A DNA stretch of 31,306 nt from positions 1 to 31,306 of IMG/VR virus record IMGVR_UViG_3300035070_002215. The stretch is one strand, 5' to 3'. Source of the DNA: a virus. The position numbers were made by a program, and so were the translations under genes. The notes beneath the pieces were generated by a model. It was given only the letters and a program-made list of their open reading frames with translations. It ran no database searches and was not told the origin of the DNA. This document shows positions 3,787 to 13,394 of this stretch, in pieces. Within the stretch, counting starts at the first letter, position 1. The number at the start of each line of letters is the position of its first letter.

Positions 3787-5019
3787 ATGACATCAACTTA
3801 TTCATCTGATCTAAAACTAGAATTGATGGTGACTGGCGAAAACGCTGGTACATGGGGTGATAATACAAATAATAACTTAAATCTTATTCAACAAGCAATC
3901 GCAGGTTTTGAACAAGTAACATTATCAAGTGGTGGAACACTAGCACTTGTAATGACTGATAAAACTATTTCTAATGCTAGAAATATGGTAATTAAATTTG
4001 CAACAGCTACAATAGCTGCTAGTACAATTTGTACTATACCAGATAGTATAGAAAAATTTTATATTTTTGATGCAACTGCATTAACTAATCCAGAAAATTT
4101 AACAATTAAAACTGCATCAGGAACTGGTTTTACATTAGATGCTGCAAAAATTTATGCTGCTTATTCAGATGGAACTAATTTAAAAGAAATTTCATTAGAC
4201 ACTTTAGGTGGAACAATTGGTACAGCACAAATAGCAGATGATGCAGTAGACAATGATAAAATTGCTGCTAATGCTGTAAGAGCTGCACAATTATCAAACA
4301 ATGCAGTAACAACTGCTAAAATAATTGACAATGCTATTTTAACTGCAAAAATTTCAAATAAAAATGTAACCACTGCAAAAATCGCTGATGATGCTGTTGG
4401 TGCAGACCAATTAGCAAACACTGCAGTAACCGCAGGTACTTATACAGTAGCAACAATTACTGTAGACGCACAAGGAAGATTAACTGGTGCTGCTTCAGGA
4501 GCTGCTGGGGGTGGTTTTGCATTAAGAGAATATAATAGAAATCCAGGAACTTATACTACGCCATCAAATGCTTCAAAAGCAAGATTCTTTGCTGTCGGTG
4601 GCGGAGGTGGTGGTAGAGGTGTTAACCCTTCACCTGACGGAAGACCTGGTGGTCAAGGTGGAGCTGGAGAATTTTTAAAAGATGTTTCTGCTTCTACTGG
4701 ATATTCTTATACTATTGGAACTGGGGGATCTGGTGGAAACCCAGGTGGTCCTGCTGCTCCAGGTGGAAATGCTACAACTGTACCAGGTTTAAGTGTAACT
4801 GCAAATGGTGGCCAAGGGGGTCAACCAGGTAACCCAGGAAATAATGGAACTGCTCCGGGAGCACAAGTTGATGTAACTACTAATTATGCAAACGGTGGTT
4901 TGTACGTTAATCCAGATCAGGTTGGTAGACCAGGAGCTGGAAGAACGCAACCGCCTGCAATGGCTAGTACTGGACAAGGTGGTGGTAGTGGTGGTTTAAT
5001 AATTTTTGACAACGGATAA
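3787..5019 (+). CDS. Tail fibre protein with decapeptide repeats and Gly/Pro-rich tip
   Basis: A 410-residue protein. The N-terminal part (residues 1-140) begins TSTYSSDLKLELM followed by GENAGTWGDNTNNNLNLI, a signature common at the start of marine phage tail fibres. Residues 145-214 are seven 10-residue repeats (consensus x-T-A-K-I-A-D-D-A-V), expected to form an elongated trimeric shaft. Residues from about 240 to the end are glycine-rich, with runs such as GGGGGG and nine X-Pro-Gly triplets between residues 252 and 383; glycine-rich tips of this kind bind receptors in other phages (T4-type Gp38 adhesins are a known analogy). A ribosome site AGGAG precedes the ATG. Host recognition is the likely role. 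The P4H-like enzyme encoded at 6190 is a plausible modifier of the X-Pro-Gly sites. Confidence 0.82.
   Translation: MTSTYSSDLKLELMVTGENAGTWGDNTNNNLNLIQQAIAGFEQVTLSSGGTLALVMTDKTISNARNMVIKFATATIAASTICTIPDSIEKFYIFDATALTNPENLTIKTASGTGFTLDAAKIYAAYSDGTNLKEISLDTLGGTIGTAQIADDAVDNDKIAANAVRAAQLSNNAVTTAKIIDNAILTAKISNKNVTTAKIADDAVGADQLANTAVTAGTYTVATITVDAQGRLTGAASGAAGGGFALREYNRNPGTYTTPSNASKARFFAVGGGGGGRGVNPSPDGRPGGQGGAGEFLKDVSASTGYSYTIGTGGSGGNPGGPAAPGGNATTVPGLSVTANGGQGGQPGNPGNNGTAPGAQVDVTTNYANGGLYVNPDQVGRPGAGRTQPPAMASTGQGGGSGGLIIFDNG
4219..4428 (+). repeat. Seven tandem 30-bp coding repeats (decapeptide fibre shaft)
   Basis: Seven consecutive in-frame 30-base units inside the tail fibre gene. The DNA is diverged but the peptide keeps the pattern: small/polar, Ala, Lys or Gln, Ile or Leu, then Ala/Asp/Asn-rich, ending Ala-Val. 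Unit borders fall every ten residues with no insertion. Confidence 0.8.
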
Positions 5020-5024
5020 TAATT

Positions 5025-5474
5025 ATGGCTAAACATATAATTTTTAATAATGAAAATAAAAGAATTGGAATAGTCGAATCTGATGAGGCTAAAGAATGGT
5101 GGATGAATTATGGAGCATCCTCATCTGTTGAAATATCAGATACAGATTATGAAGCAGTAGCATTTACTCTAACAAAAAAATTTGAAGATATTGAAACTTC
5201 ATCTAATATAATTAACAATGATTCTATACCCACAGAAACAATAACTAAACAACATTGCCAAGATGCAATTAATGAGCTTATAAAAAATATTCGTCATTGT
5301 GAACAGAATTTTCCTAGTGTACCAAGCACTTGGAGTAATTATATATCTACTTTAGAAAGCATAAATTTAGATAGCATTTCATGGCCAGTAACTGCATCTG
5401 TTTGGCTTGACGCATTACACAAGAATGGTATAAGTGTACCCTCACCTGCTGGTGAGATACCATGCGTCACATAA
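5025..5474 (+). CDS. Possible tail fibre assembly protein, otherwise unknown
   Basis: A 149-residue protein beginning 5 nt after the fibre gene. It starts with a short beta segment (KHIIFNNENKRIGIVESDEAKEWW), has a helical middle with two His/Cys-containing stretches (KQHCQDAINELIKNIRHCEQ) and ends with SISWPVTASVWLDALHKNGI. Small proteins with a late Trp-Pro element, encoded straight after a fibre, are often fibre chaperones; that assignment rests on position and a weak resemblance. No signal peptide or membrane segment is seen. Its end overlaps the next gene by 13 nt. Confidence 0.5.
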   Translation: MAKHIIFNNENKRIGIVESDEAKEWWMNYGASSSVEISDTDYEAVAFTLTKKFEDIETSSNIINNDSIPTETITKQHCQDAINELIKNIRHCEQNFPSVPSTWSNYISTLESINLDSISWPVTASVWLDALHKNGISVPSPAGEIPCVT

Positions 5475-6199
5475 TTAAATTTAAAGCTCACAATTTTATA
5501 ACCAAAGATAAATCCCTATATCCCACACCAGGTAAGTTTAATATTCCTGATTGGTATAAAAATATTAAAGTTGGTAATTTTAATAATTTAAACATTAAGA
5601 ATTGTAAACCTTTTCTTGATAGTTTAGTAACAGGTTACATTTTAAAAAATCCAGTAGACCAAGAAATAAATTTTAATACACCTGATTCTAGAATAAATAA
5701 TAAATTAAATACTTGGATTAATATAAATGATAATGTTTCTACGCATCCAAAAGTTGATTTAATAAATGTCAATAAAGGAAATGAGATACATAACTTACAA
5801 CAAGTTGGAGGTAATACTTGTCCTTATGCAGTAACCAATAAGATGTATGAAATTTATAAAATTATGAATCCATGGATTATAGAAGTCCCTAAAAATTATA
5901 GTGTTTTATACACACCACCACTAAATAGACCTGATGATAGATTCGAAATTCTTTCAGGTATAGTTGATGGTAATCATCCAGTACAAGTTAACTTTCCATG
6001 TGTATTTAAAAAAGAAGGTACTTGGTTATTAGAAAAAGGAACACCGATTGCAACTGTCTTTCCTTTCAAAAATGAAAGTTGGGATATGAAAGTAAGTGAA
6101 ATCCCAGAAGAAGAATCCTCAAGAAGATTCTTTACACTTGGTACAAAATTAACTAAATATTATGAAAAATTATTTTGGAAAAAAAAATCATGGAACTAA
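5462..6199 (+). CDS. DUF6065-like protein of unknown function
   Basis: A 245-residue protein. The strongest stretch, residues about 139-205, has a conserved-looking order: WIIEVPKNYSVLYTPPLNRPDD, then ILSGIVDGNHPVQVNFPC, then LLEKGTPIATVFPF. This resembles DUF6065 as I remember it, a family of unknown function found in bacteria and phages next to oxygenases and sugar-modifying genes. The pattern (PP-x-N-R, I-V-D, N-F-P, G-T-P-I) suggests a compact beta fold. The N-terminal 130 residues are Asn/Lys-rich. It lies in an accessory cassette beside two Fe(II)/2OG oxygenases, so a role in the same modification pathway is possible. It overlaps the next start by about 10 nt. Confidence 0.55.
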   Translation: MRHIIKFKAHNFITKDKSLYPTPGKFNIPDWYKNIKVGNFNNLNIKNCKPFLDSLVTGYILKNPVDQEINFNTPDSRINNKLNTWININDNVSTHPKVDLINVNKGNEIHNLQQVGGNTCPYAVTNKMYEIYKIMNPWIIEVPKNYSVLYTPPLNRPDDRFEILSGIVDGNHPVQVNFPCVFKKEGTWLLEKGTPIATVFPFKNESWDMKVSEIPEEESSRRFFTLGTKLTKYYEKLFWKKKSWN

Positions 6200-6768
6200 A
6201 AGAATTTATAAAAGTGTATCCAAATTTATTATCACCTATTCAAGTTTCTGCTTTTTTAAAAACATTTAATAATTATAATTTTTTCGATACAACTATTGTT
6301 GGTGATACAAATTCAGACAGCTTTAAAACTGAAATAGATAAAACTGTTAGAAATACACAAGATTATAATTTAAATATAAATAAATCAATTACTGAAACAC
6401 ACTGGTATAATTATATATGTGCAAAGATTATGAGAGCAGTTCAAAGATACAAAAAAGATACTATTGGAGATTTTAGAATTACATACATTAAAGAAGTAAC
6501 ATTATTAAAATATGAACAAGGAGGATTTTACAAACCACACGTAGATTCTTGTAAAGAAATACATCGTGAATTATCAATTATTATTTTTTTAAATAACGAT
6601 TTTGAAGGTGGATACCTTAAATTTTATAAACCTAATGGAGATATATATTTTGAAGTAAAACCTGAACCTGGTAGTGTTGTGGTATGGCCAAGTAATTTTT
6701 TGTATCCTCATGCAGCAACCAAAGTAATAAAAGGGACAAGATTTTGTATAGTATCATGGGTAATATAA
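6190..6768 (+). CDS. Prolyl-4-hydroxylase-like Fe(II)/2-oxoglutarate oxygenase
   Basis: From ATG 6190 the protein has 192 residues. The C-terminal half is a P4H-type double-stranded beta helix: YEQGGFYKPHVDS holds the H-x-D metal pair (His117, Asp119), LSIIIFLNNDFEGGYLKFY follows, GSVVVWPSNFLYPHAATKV holds the distal His174, and KGTRFCIVSW holds Arg184, expected to bind the 2-oxoglutarate carboxylate. All catalytic positions are present, so an active dioxygenase is likely. Family members hydroxylate prolyl residues, other side chains or small molecules; the substrate here is unknown. A TTG start at 6175 would add five residues but is less likely. The gene overlaps both neighbours slightly, as in an operon. 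Confidence 0.85.
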   Translation: MELKEFIKVYPNLLSPIQVSAFLKTFNNYNFFDTTIVGDTNSDSFKTEIDKTVRNTQDYNLNINKSITETHWYNYICAKIMRAVQRYKKDTIGDFRITYIKEVTLLKYEQGGFYKPHVDSCKEIHRELSIIIFLNNDFEGGYLKFYKPNGDIYFEVKPEPGSVVVWPSNFLYPHAATKVIKGTRFCIVSWVI

Positions 6769-7289
6769 TTTACATAAAAGATTTCTTAAAAGAAGATGAA
6801 AATAATTTGATTTGGAATTATATGAAAATTTTTCATGAAGCAAATTCAAAATTGTTTGATGACAAACAAACATCTTTAGGAGAAACTTATGAATATGGTT
6901 GTCCATTAATGGATAGTCTTTTGTTATCTAAAATAAAAAAAGTTGAAAAACATTTAAAAAAAGAAGTATTACCAACCTACACTTTTTGGAGAATGTATAA
7001 CAAGTATTCAAAATTAGATAAACACACTGATAGGCCTTCATGTGAAATAACTATAAGTATAAATGTAAGAAGTGATAAAGAATGGCCTATATATATTAAT
7101 GATAAAAAATATATTATAAAACCAAAAGATGGTATTTTATATTATGGAGCAAAAGTAAAACATTGGAGATTAGAATATGAAGGTGACTATAACGGTCAGA
7201 TATTTTTACACTATGTTGAAAAGAATGGAGAATTTTCAGATTATTTGTATGATAAAAGAAAGTATTTAGGATTTAAAAATGAAATTTAA
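6756..7289 (+). CDS. Putative Fe(II)/2OG oxygenase-like protein
   Basis: From ATG 6756 the protein has 177 residues and overlaps the preceding oxygenase gene by 13 nt. The layout resembles small phage 2OG oxygenases: an N-terminal helical part, then YTFWRMYNKYSKLDKHTDRP with an H-x-D pair (His90, Asp92), CEITISINVRSD, a WPIYIN strand, KPKDGILYYGAKVKHWR with a distal His136, and GQIFLHYV as the last strand. The usual basic residue for the co-substrate is less clear than in the neighbour; Arg138 is one option. I judge it a distinct, divergent member rather than a duplicate of the gene at 6190. The substrate is unknown. A TTG at 6744 is a less likely start. Confidence 0.7.
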   Translation: MGNIIYIKDFLKEDENNLIWNYMKIFHEANSKLFDDKQTSLGETYEYGCPLMDSLLLSKIKKVEKHLKKEVLPTYTFWRMYNKYSKLDKHTDRPSCEITISINVRSDKEWPIYINDKKYIIKPKDGILYYGAKVKHWRLEYEGDYNGQIFLHYVEKNGEFSDYLYDKRKYLGFKNEI

Positions 7290-7473
7290 AAATTACAAAG
7301 ATGCATTTATTATTGAGTTTACGGATGATGAAATAAAAATTATTAATAAACAAAAAAAATTACCAATTATTTACACTGAAACTAAACCTCTTCTAGAGGC
7401 TATTTCTACTGCTTTTGTAAACGCTTGTTACGCTTTAAAAAAATATATAGATAAAAATGAGCCAAAAAGCTAA
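7279..7473 (+). CDS. Small unknown protein
   Basis: A 64-residue lysine-rich protein overlapping the preceding gene by 11 nt. It contains FIIEFTDDEIKIINKQKKLP and a more hydrophobic LLEAISTAFVNACYALKKYI helix. No family is recognised. The overlap and the in-phase position at the end of the accessory cassette support it being translated. Confidence 0.5.
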   Translation: MKFKNYKDAFIIEFTDDEIKIINKQKKLPIIYTETKPLLEAISTAFVNACYALKKYIDKNEPKS

Positions 7474-11400: not shown

Positions 11401-11594
11401 AAGATTTACCAAAAATTCCAGTAGAAACTAAAGAAATAATTAAAAATAAAAGAACAGGTAAGATCTATGCAAATCAAAAAGAATTTGATGATGATGTAGC
11501 AGATCCAAATACTGATACTACTAAAGAAGATTTTAGACAAGATTTAGAAGTAAAAGTTACAAAAGTATCACTAGGGGCTATGACTAGAAAATAA
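11397..11594 (+). CDS. Small acidic/lysine-rich protein, unknown
   Basis: A 65-residue protein linked by ATGA to the cupin gene and by TAATG to the glycosyltransferase gene. It contains KNKRTGKIYANQKEFDDDVA, then an acidic stretch and LEVKVTKVSLGAMTRK. The type is familiar from structural regions of marine phages, always small and of unknown function. Its position inside the modification cassette may simply reflect an older structural gene that the cassette has grown around. Confidence 0.6.
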   Translation: MKDLPKIPVETKEIIKNKRTGKIYANQKEFDDDVADPNTDTTKEDFRQDLEVKVTKVSLGAMTRK

Positions 11595-12523
11595 TGGAAC
11601 CCAGAGGCGCAACAGAATTACAAATGGAAATGTTGGAAAGACATGTTGCAAAAGAAATTCTAGATGAAGTTCAAATTTGTACTTCTATACCAGGTAAAGT
11701 TCCAATAGATTCAAATAAATTAAATTTGCTTTGGCAAAAAAATTCTTGGGACCAACCTAATCTTCAAGAGTTTTTTAGAAACAAAGAAAGACATAAAGAA
11801 TATGATTGGTATGTTTTTAACAGTCATTGGAATTATGAAAAATTTAGATATTTTTTTGATATTCCAACTGATAGATCAATAGTAATAAAAAATGGAATTG
11901 AAGAATTTCCAATAAGAAAAATATATAAAAAAGGAGAACCTATTAAATTAGTTCATCACTGCACACCGTGGAGGGGGTTAAATGTTTTATTAAGAGCAAT
12001 GCAAGAAATTAAAGATCCAAATATAACATTGGATGTTTATTCTTCTTCACAAATATATGGTAGTGAATTTAGTGAAAATCATGATGAAGAATTTTTACCT
12101 CTCTATGAACAAGCAAAAAATTTACCTAACGTAAACTATATTGGTTACAAACCAAATGAGTTTATAAAAGAAATGATGCCTAATTATGATATGTTTGTTT
12201 ATCCTTGTATTTTTGAAGAAACATCTTGTGTGTCTGCATTAGAAGCATTATCAGCTGGGGTTCATGTCATAACAAACAATTTTGGAGCTTTATATGAAAC
12301 TTGTGCTGAATGGCCAGTTTATGTAAACTATTCAACTAACTACGAACAAATGGCAATTGATACAGCTTGTGCTATTAACACTGCTGCAAATTACTTACAT
12401 GAAGAATCTGTTCAAGAACATCTAAATGAACAACAAAAATATTTTAAAAAATTTTATAACTGGGAAAAGAAAGGTCAAGAATGGACATCATTTTTGAAAG
12501 GCGCACTCAATGACAGAAAATAA
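11594..12523 (+). CDS. GT-B glycosyltransferase (family 4-like)
   Basis: A 309-residue protein. The N-terminus has PRGATELQMEML, the short form of the donor-side loop of GT4 enzymes. Residues about 96-130 (VIKNGIEEFP, LVHHCTPWRGLNVLLRAM) and FEETSCVSALEALSAGV (Glu209 and Glu217, the E-x7-E signature) make the sugar-nucleotide binding half of a GT-B fold. The N-terminal Rossmann domain looks short compared with the usual 350-400 residue enzymes. It should transfer a sugar from a nucleotide-sugar to an unknown acceptor in the cytoplasm. The ORF overlaps the next glycosyltransferase by 14 nt, so the two are probably made together. There is no membrane anchor. Confidence 0.8.
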   Translation: MEPRGATELQMEMLERHVAKEILDEVQICTSIPGKVPIDSNKLNLLWQKNSWDQPNLQEFFRNKERHKEYDWYVFNSHWNYEKFRYFFDIPTDRSIVIKNGIEEFPIRKIYKKGEPIKLVHHCTPWRGLNVLLRAMQEIKDPNITLDVYSSSQIYGSEFSENHDEEFLPLYEQAKNLPNVNYIGYKPNEFIKEMMPNYDMFVYPCIFEETSCVSALEALSAGVHVITNNFGALYETCAEWPVYVNYSTNYEQMAIDTACAINTAANYLHEESVQEHLNEQQKYFKKFYNWEKKGQEWTSFLKGALNDRK

Positions 12524-13394
12524 TCAATTTATAAATGAAGATACATACCAAACATTAACAGAATTAAAAACAGATCCACAACCTCATGAAAAAGCAGTAA
12601 TGCCTTTGTGGAAAGAAAAATCAAAACAAGATAAACCTAAAGCTCCATACTCTGTCTTTGTAGCTACACCAGTTCATAGCGATTGCTCAATACATTATGC
12701 ACAAGCTTTATTAGAGTTTCAAAAACTAGCTTTAGATAAAGGAGTTGAAACACAATTTTGTTTGTTAAAATCTTCTCTTATTACTCAAGGTCGAAACTTA
12801 TGTGTTTCAAGTTTTTTAGAAAGTAAACATACTCACATGTTATTTATAGACTCTGATATTTATTTTCATTCGCCATCTATATTTAAAATGATTGAAAAAG
12901 ACAAAGACTTAATTTCTATTCCTTATCCTTTAAAAGTTATGATGTGGGATAAATTATTTACAAAAATTCAACAAGGTAAAGTTAAGCATCCTAAAGATTT
13001 AAAAAAATGGCTTAACACATATCCCATGAGAGTAGATAATCCAGATAGTATAAAGTTAGATAATGGAGTCATGGAAGTAACACATAGTCCGACTGGATGT
13101 ATGTTAATTAAAAGATCAGTTTTTGAAAAAATGATTGAAAAATATCCAGATAAGGGAATTGTGCAAAAAACAGTAATTAACGGGGAGTATGTCGATAGAC
13201 CACATATGTGGAACTTCTTTGATTGTCTACACGATCCAGTGACTAAATCATATTTAGGAGAAGACTTTAGTTTTTGTAAACTTTGGAAAGACATAGGTGG
13301 CAAATGTTATGCTTATGTTGAGTCTGGAATAGTGCATATTGGGGAACATGCTTATGAAGGTCGTTTTGTTGATGAGTTGATAACCAAGACTTAA
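12510..13394 (+). CDS. GT-A glycosyltransferase-like protein
   Basis: A 294-residue protein. After about 45 polar residues comes YSVFVATPVHSDCSIHYAQA, a GT-A beginning, then ITQGRNLCVSSFL, HMLFIDSDIYF with Asp114-x-Asp116 (metal/nucleotide-sugar binding), SPTGCMLIKRSVF, and GEDFSFCKLWKDIGG (Glu251, Asp252 as candidate catalytic acids) followed by IVHIGEHAYEG. This is the standard order of strand, DxD, acceptor loop and ED motif. No transmembrane segment is seen. With the preceding gene it forms a two-enzyme glycosylation cassette inside the virion region. The sugar and acceptor cannot be read from the sequence. Confidence 0.8.
   Translation: MTENNQFINEDTYQTLTELKTDPQPHEKAVMPLWKEKSKQDKPKAPYSVFVATPVHSDCSIHYAQALLEFQKLALDKGVETQFCLLKSSLITQGRNLCVSSFLESKHTHMLFIDSDIYFHSPSIFKMIEKDKDLISIPYPLKVMMWDKLFTKIQQGKVKHPKDLKKWLNTYPMRVDNPDSIKLDNGVMEVTHSPTGCMLIKRSVFEKMIEKYPDKGIVQKTVINGEYVDRPHMWNFFDCLHDPVTKSYLGEDFSFCKLWKDIGGKCYAYVESGIVHIGEHAYEGRFVDELITKT

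Follow-up and report, generated by a model that had tools for sequence, protein, structure and literature searches.

The 31,306-nt virus sequence IMGVR_UViG_3300035070_002215 (IMG/VR; positions 1 to 31,306 of the record, hereafter the window) encodes, in its late virion module, a tail fibre with a glycine-rich tip, followed by a small set of genes that includes two predicted 2-oxoglutarate- and Fe(II)-dependent (2OG-Fe(II)) oxygenases. The recurrence of such tips next to the oxygenase pair suggests that these phages chemically modify their own attachment fibres, and we see roughly even chances that the genes constitute a fibre-maturation cassette that hydroxylates the receptor-binding tip, a proposal read here from genome architecture alone. 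An earlier note on this DNA had proposed that a prolyl 4-hydroxylase (P4H)-like enzyme may modify an X-Pro-Gly-rich fibre of the same phage. That idea is partly supported, and it widens: the link is to a glycine-rich adhesin module, with two oxygenases instead of one. The closest named relative of the window is the Pelagibacter phage HTVC023P, and a megablast search against phages returned fragments of HTVC023P and HTVC027P and nothing else. HTVC023P-type pelagiphages are viruses of SAR11 bacteria and are highly abundant in the ocean.

The gene order in the window is fibre, orf149, phrog_7084 protein, phrog_61 oxygenase, phrog_2954 protein, a small ORF and a large virion protein. The features that concern us are the following:

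3787..5019, + strand: tail-fibre protein of 410 aa with a conserved N-terminal part and a glycine-rich variable tip (matches to phrog_31104 and tail-fibre PHROGs)
5025..5474, + strand: orf149, a probable tip-specific fibre chaperone, judged from its position after the fibre and its covariation with the tip
5462..6199, + strand: phrog_7084 protein (phrog_7084, E 2e-32; weak DUF6065)
6190..6768, + strand: prolyl-hydroxylase-like 2OG-Fe(II) oxygenase, phrog_61 (PF13640; EGLN1, P3H1, PKHD and PiuC profile matches)
6756..7289, + strand: predicted second 2OG-Fe(II) oxygenase of prolyl-hydroxylase fold, phrog_2954 (AF2 model, Foldseek, and the motif His90, Asp92, His136, Arg138)
7279..7473, + strand: small accessory ORF of 64 aa (close relatives only, 9 loci)
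11594..12523, + strand: group 1 glycosyltransferase (PF00534, E 2e-13)

One outcome that the earlier note had named as refuting its proposal was a lack of co-occurrence of oxygenase and Pro-Gly-rich fibres among related genomes, and co-occurrence is what a survey of HTVC023P-type pelagiphages found. We collected 103 distinct fibres with Gly-rich tips, gathered by fibre and not by oxygenase (a few were found by both). The oxygenase is encoded downstream in all 85 distinct loci that have at least 2 kb of downstream sequence, and the phrog_2954 gene is present too in 81 of these; neither the oxygenase nor a Gly-rich gene lies upstream of the fibre in any of the 47 loci with at least 4 kb of upstream sequence. 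In the tipless-fibre architecture, which is that of HTVC023P, the oxygenase lies upstream of the fibre (14 of 17 loci). All 39 loci gathered by that oxygenase have a Gly-rich gene (above 18% Gly) no more than 5 kb upstream of it, usually three or four such genes in tandem, and a density of 4 or more Pro-Gly per 150 aa is reached in 36 of the loci. The tip can also be a separate ORF that still stands ahead of the cassette (locus L009), and in two loci (L426 and L446) a Gly-rich gene immediately precedes the oxygenase, itself downstream of the fibre. Since the position of the oxygenase shifts with that of the Gly-rich genes across architectures, and the enzyme sits with these proteins where they have been relocated, the oxygenase goes with the Gly-rich module. 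HTVC023P itself has four tandem Gly-rich proteins that share a layout (gp59-62; L001:6242-11935), upstream of its tipless fibre; these are probably multiple alternative adhesins.

The tip and cassette genes form a single divergence island between conserved flanks, with mean distances of 0.53 to 0.78 for the tip and cassette genes and 0.22 to 0.23 for the fibre N-terminus and the virion gene that flank them. A module swap between loci L141 and L162 proved only apparent, the two being 98% identical throughout.

The fibre consists of a conserved N-terminal part (approximately residues 1-240) and a variable glycine-rich tip (approximately 241-410). The nine X-Pro-Gly triplets that the earlier note had placed in residues 252-383 are all there (Pro 253, 287, 319, 325, 333, 347, 350, 357 and 382), and residues 1-240 contain none. 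Shuffling of the 170-residue C-terminus gives a mean of 4.5 triplets, with nine or more at p approximately 0.009. Across 70 distinct related tips, Pro-Gly was observed 318 times against 237 expected from composition, and Pro is followed by Gly as often as Gly is followed by Gly (35% in each case). Because Pro-Gly is just 1.34 times what composition predicts, the triplets are mostly a by-product of a tip that contains Gly and Pro. X-Pro-Gly thus loses its value as a discriminating feature: the excess is small, the fibre of cyanophage Pam3 has 4 triplets with no such oxygenase found in the 36 of 54.5 kb examined, and across unrelated phages oxygenases are not significantly near Pro-Gly-rich genes.

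The character of the tip emerges from its fold. Fibre residues 255-403 match Gly_rich_2 (PF21722; E 7e-6, above the Pfam family cut-off), and a structure model has predicted local distance difference test (pLDDT) values of mostly 84-98 over residues 250-370. The top PDB match of the model is the Pam3 fibre (7ypx; Z 16.7, root-mean-square deviation 2.5, 158 aa, 27% identity), and further solved relatives are the Bxb1 tail tip and the ALK/LTK glycine-rich domain. By its modelled fold, the fibre C-terminus is a phage glycine-rich adhesin tip of the Pam3 gp24 type, and this glycine/proline-rich tip probably grips the host. A collagen triple helix is excluded by the longest Gly-X-Y run, which is 5, together with the Pam3-like fold. 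Among the closest known systems is the Pam3 fibre gp24 with its chaperone gp25 (PMC9608196; 7ypx, 7yfw), together with gp38 of Salmonella phage S16. In Pam3, the glycine-rich domain bears variable receptor-binding loops, and the chaperone gene comes after the fibre (PMC9608196). The window shares with Pam3 the glycine-rich tip fold, a small variable gene directly 3' of the fibre and a variable distal tip; the two fibres differ in their N-terminal parts, whose sequences are unrelated, and homology between orf149 and gp25 is undetectable.

That small gene, orf149, varies more than any other in the cassette, and it alone diverges in step with the tip once other genes are controlled for (partial Mantel 0.21, p 0.005). 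Its position and its covariation with the tip fit a TFA/TAC-type chaperone; searches against solved chaperones, Pfam and, by profile, the PDB gave no sequence match. By analogy with Pam3 gp25, orf149 is probably a tip-specific fibre chaperone. The adjacent phrog_7084 gene is part of the cassette in most loci, and its profile had no match in the PDB.

The phrog_61 oxygenase starts 1.17 kb from the fibre stop (5019), inside the virion module, in agreement with the approximately 1.2 kb given earlier. With ATG 6190 taken as the start (192 aa; the mechanical ORF list begins at TTG 6175), the enzyme is complete and P4H-like as the earlier note had described it, with His117, Asp119, His174 and Arg184 at the expected positions. 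It matches 2OG-FeII_Oxy_3 (PF13640) with E 9e-19 and 68.7 bits, against a Pfam cut-off of 27. Across 40 orthologues, His117, Asp119, Arg126, Ser129, His174 and Trp190 are invariant, while position 184 is Arg in 36, as in the window protein, and Lys in 4. With an H-x-D...H triad and a basic 2OG anchor, the protein is by its sequence a member of the 2OG-Fe(II) superfamily.

Which branch it belongs to is a finer question. The 40-orthologue profile matches PKHD hydroxylases/PiuC, prolyl 3-hydroxylase 1 (P3H1) and EGLN1; its matches to collagen-type and algal P4Hs are weaker. EGLN1 aligns at profile positions 7-189, which covers the whole catalytic domain (E 8e-10, the top match being an EGLN1 variant), and the R and W columns of the profile line up with EGLN1. 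Since PKHD and P3H1 score on par with EGLN1 over the core, the branch assignment stays between them. In collagen-type P4Hs, a Lys approximately ten residues past the distal His anchors the 2OG C5-carboxylate; with Arg at 184 instead, EGLN/PKHD-like is the better name. A collagen-type prolyl 4-hydroxylase was rejected both on this anchor and on the substrate, given the short Gly-X-Y run of the tip. The collagen-P4H framing of the earlier note therefore had to be given up for both partners: the enzyme falls closer to EGLN/PHD and PKHD than to collagen P4H, and the tip has a glycine-rich adhesin fold in place of a collagen helix. By profile similarity, Arg anchor and conserved Trp, the oxygenase is EGLN/PHD-like, its activity being predicted. 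It resembles the EGLN/PHD and PKHD/PiuC hydroxylases in the H-x-D...H...R triad and 2OG anchor, in fold class and in the full-length EGLN1 profile match, and differs from them in its low identity and its phage late-operon setting. A resemblance of phrog_61 proteins to human EGLN3 has been reported (PMC12774648).

The next gene belongs to phrog_2954, which PHROGs labels 'ferrochelatase'. The AF2 model of the window protein (pLDDT 95) is a 2OG-Fe(II) double-stranded beta-helix. Top Foldseek matches are prolyl hydroxylases (PHD/P4H; E 5e-8), and the VIA Z is approximately 15. The PDB gave 458 matches at E < 0.001, of which the best 50 are all 2OG-superfamily enzymes, and H-x-D...H is kept in 33 of 34 orthologues. 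One orthologue (L147:9016-9603), without H-x-D and the distal His, is possibly an inactive copy. A ferrochelatase fails on fold, and given the fold, the prolyl-hydroxylase matches and the retained motif, the label is most likely wrong and the protein a predicted second 2OG-Fe(II) oxygenase of prolyl-hydroxylase fold. The label can go already, in PHROGs (phrog_2954 and phrog_3531) and in the pelagiphage and seasonal-virome papers. The phrog_2954 profile found no sequence match in the PDB, and a profile-profile comparison of the phrog_61 and phrog_2954 oxygenases yielded no match, so that the common fold of the two is visible in structure only. In phrog_3531 of some cyanophages, both oxygenases are fused into one protein, which is an independent sign that the two act jointly.

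Outside the pelagiphages, we found parallels in the cyanophages ACG-2014f and S-CAM7, in which a collagen-repeat fibre (30 and 49 consecutive Gly-X-Y, respectively), a PF00534 group 1 glycosyltransferase, an oxygenase and a short tail fibre are encoded consecutively. As in the window cassette, an oxygenase of the same subfamily ('PiuC'/P4H) has a Gly/Pro-rich fibre and a group 1 glycosyltransferase for neighbours; unlike in the window, the fibres are true collagen repeats and not a glycine-rich adhesin domain. In 11 cyanophages, 24 of 75 oxygenases have a fibre gene no more than 3 kb away, where 5.3 would be expected; the p value overstates independence because some fibres of the set were known neighbours of oxygenases when picked and the gene order is common to these cyanophages. 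The best P4H relative per genome was near Pro-Gly-rich genes in 5 of 12 cases against 1.5 expected (p 0.0075), and in 3 of 10 against 1.0 when the pelagiphages were left out (p 0.07); this test was exploratory and run after a negative result for the PF13640 class as a whole. Approximately half of the relatives of the AG-345-O18 oxygenase are without a Pro-Gly-rich neighbour.

That class result is the first of several that weigh against fibre modification. In 18 whole phage genomes, 9 of 19 PF13640 genes were within 5 kb of Pro-Gly-rich genes against 4.9 expected (p 0.047), and without the pelagiphages p rises to 0.24, which is no convincing link. Pam3 has a tip with X-Pro-Gly triplets and, in the portion of its genome covered above, no such oxygenase. 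Once other genes are controlled for, the correlation of oxygenase divergence with that of the tip is 0.044 (p 0.2), leaving specific tip/oxygenase co-evolution unsupported. HTVC027P is a counterexample, with an oxygenase relative (gp73) in a genome without a Pro-Gly-rich protein. Finally, common descent and dense gene packing may account for linkage seen inside one phage group. As to gp73 itself (L002:12584-13174, - strand), H-x-E replaces H-x-D, and the gene stands in inverted orientation, with the fibre on one side and the large virion gene on the other.

With these points in mind, we infer a maturation route with the tip as substrate and proline as the residue, in which the fibre tip, the probable chaperone orf149 and the oxygenases would together serve host recognition as a variable cassette of the late virion module. 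The chaperone would keep the nascent glycine/proline-rich tip unfolded or part-folded. The P4H/EGLN-like oxygenase and its phrog_2954 partner would then use O2, Fe(II) and 2-oxoglutarate on tip residues, most plausibly prolines and some in X-Pro-Gly among them, before the tip folds into its glycine-rich lattice. The modification might stiffen or decorate the receptor-binding loops, or make acceptors for the phage glycosyltransferase, whose role as a partner acting after hydroxylation is speculative. In favour of this reading, besides the linkage, the shared divergence, the fusion and the cyanophage cases described above, the top profile matches of the phrog_61 enzyme are protein prolyl hydroxylases. 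For the earlier claim that the oxygenase acts on the fibre, linkage to the Gly-rich module speaks in favour; the part that relied on X-Pro-Gly and on a collagen-type enzyme and tip did not hold up. A broader version, to which we assign a little less than an even chance, is that HTVC023P-type pelagiphages possess a dedicated fibre-hydroxylation system, a swappable cassette of tip, chaperone and oxygenase pair, that the cyanophage collagen-repeat fibres follow the same principle, and that the supposed auxiliary metabolic genes are really virion-maturation enzymes.

Alternatively, the oxygenases might act on host proteins or metabolites, whether as auxiliary metabolic enzymes or in host takeover (a translation factor could be a target; compare bacterial PPHD and EF-Tu), their late-operon site being historical; we consider this unlikely. 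In the available parts of two studies, the phrog_61 and phrog_2954 families are classed as auxiliary metabolic genes, being described as such in HTVC023P-type phages (PMC9599517) and found enriched in seasonal viruses (PMC11561400); 'ferrochelatase' is there taken literally, the genes are treated as metabolic, and no link to Gly-rich fibres is drawn. The EF-Tu-binding P4H of P. putida is a weak profile match (4iw3, E 7e-6), relatives lie beside replication/recombination genes in cyanophages S-CRM01 and syn9 and also in one Roseobacter phage, and HTVC027P retains its oxygenase without a Gly-rich protein. However, a host target predicts conservation, and orthologues differ by 64% on average; nor does it explain why the gene relocates with the Gly-rich module and is hypervariable like the tip.

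It is also conceivable, although rather improbable in our view, that the oxygenase does have the Gly-rich tip, or else some other virion protein, as its substrate, but at another residue (Asn, Asp, Lys) and not at X-Pro-Gly prolines, X-Pro-Gly being a by-product of composition. The small Pro-Gly excess and the Pam3 tip fit this, as does the retention of the oxygenase beside tips with 0-1 Pro-Gly, and, since the two oxygenases differ in sequence, one or both may lack prolyl specificity. Against this, prolyl hydroxylases are the top sequence or structure matches of both enzymes, and the two clearest cyanophage cases put a relative beside collagen repeats that contain Pro-Gly. AlkB/TET-like DNA or RNA hydroxylation is very improbable: such enzymes belong to the superfamily, ALKBH6 and ABH8 appear lower in the phrog_2954 fold search and recombination genes adjoin some relatives, but protein-hydroxylase profiles rank top, the genes are in the late virion module adjoining the fibre, and in the alignment the invariant Arg126 and Trp190 have the spacing of EGLN1 residues that we take to line the substrate pocket.

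Hydroxylation of viral proteins by a viral enzyme has a precedent in proposal. The prolyl 4-hydroxylase of PBCV-1 was suggested to act on viral proteins (Eriksson 1999, cited in PMC9301287); like the phrog_61 enzyme it is virus-encoded, and its structure, 5c5t, is among the matches of both window oxygenases. It differs in coming from an algal virus, in having been tested in vitro and in lacking a tail-fibre link. The citing paper (PMC9301287) mentions viral P4H alongside collagen in tail fibres, citing the algal-virus enzyme, and calls its use cryptic. A paper tying these oxygenases to Gly-rich fibres was not found in the open literature, subscription papers being outside the search. Pelagiphage 2OG-Fe(II) oxygenases and 'ferrochelatases' are often tallied as auxiliary metabolic genes. 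Should the adhesin turn out to be modified by these enzymes, virion maturation would gain a large class of marine viral genes now called 'metabolic', host range would hinge on a modification that requires O2 and iron, and recombinant fibres produced without the enzymes would be the wrong reagents.

Some further arrangements were seen along the way. In IMGVR_UViG_3300005662_000343 (L029:5183-6493 onward to 12611), five consecutive P4H-like oxygenases are encoded next to a virion-like protein that has tandem (P)PGFFx repeats. In S-SCSM1 (L349:5681-14703), four 2OG-Fe(II) oxygenase genes precede the short tail-fibre genes and three follow them, seven in all. In the window, two adjoining glycosyltransferase-like genes (11594-13394; PF00534 and weak Anp1) are part of the virion module, and a gene annotated as a glycosyltransferase is located downstream in HTVC023P and HTVC027P too.

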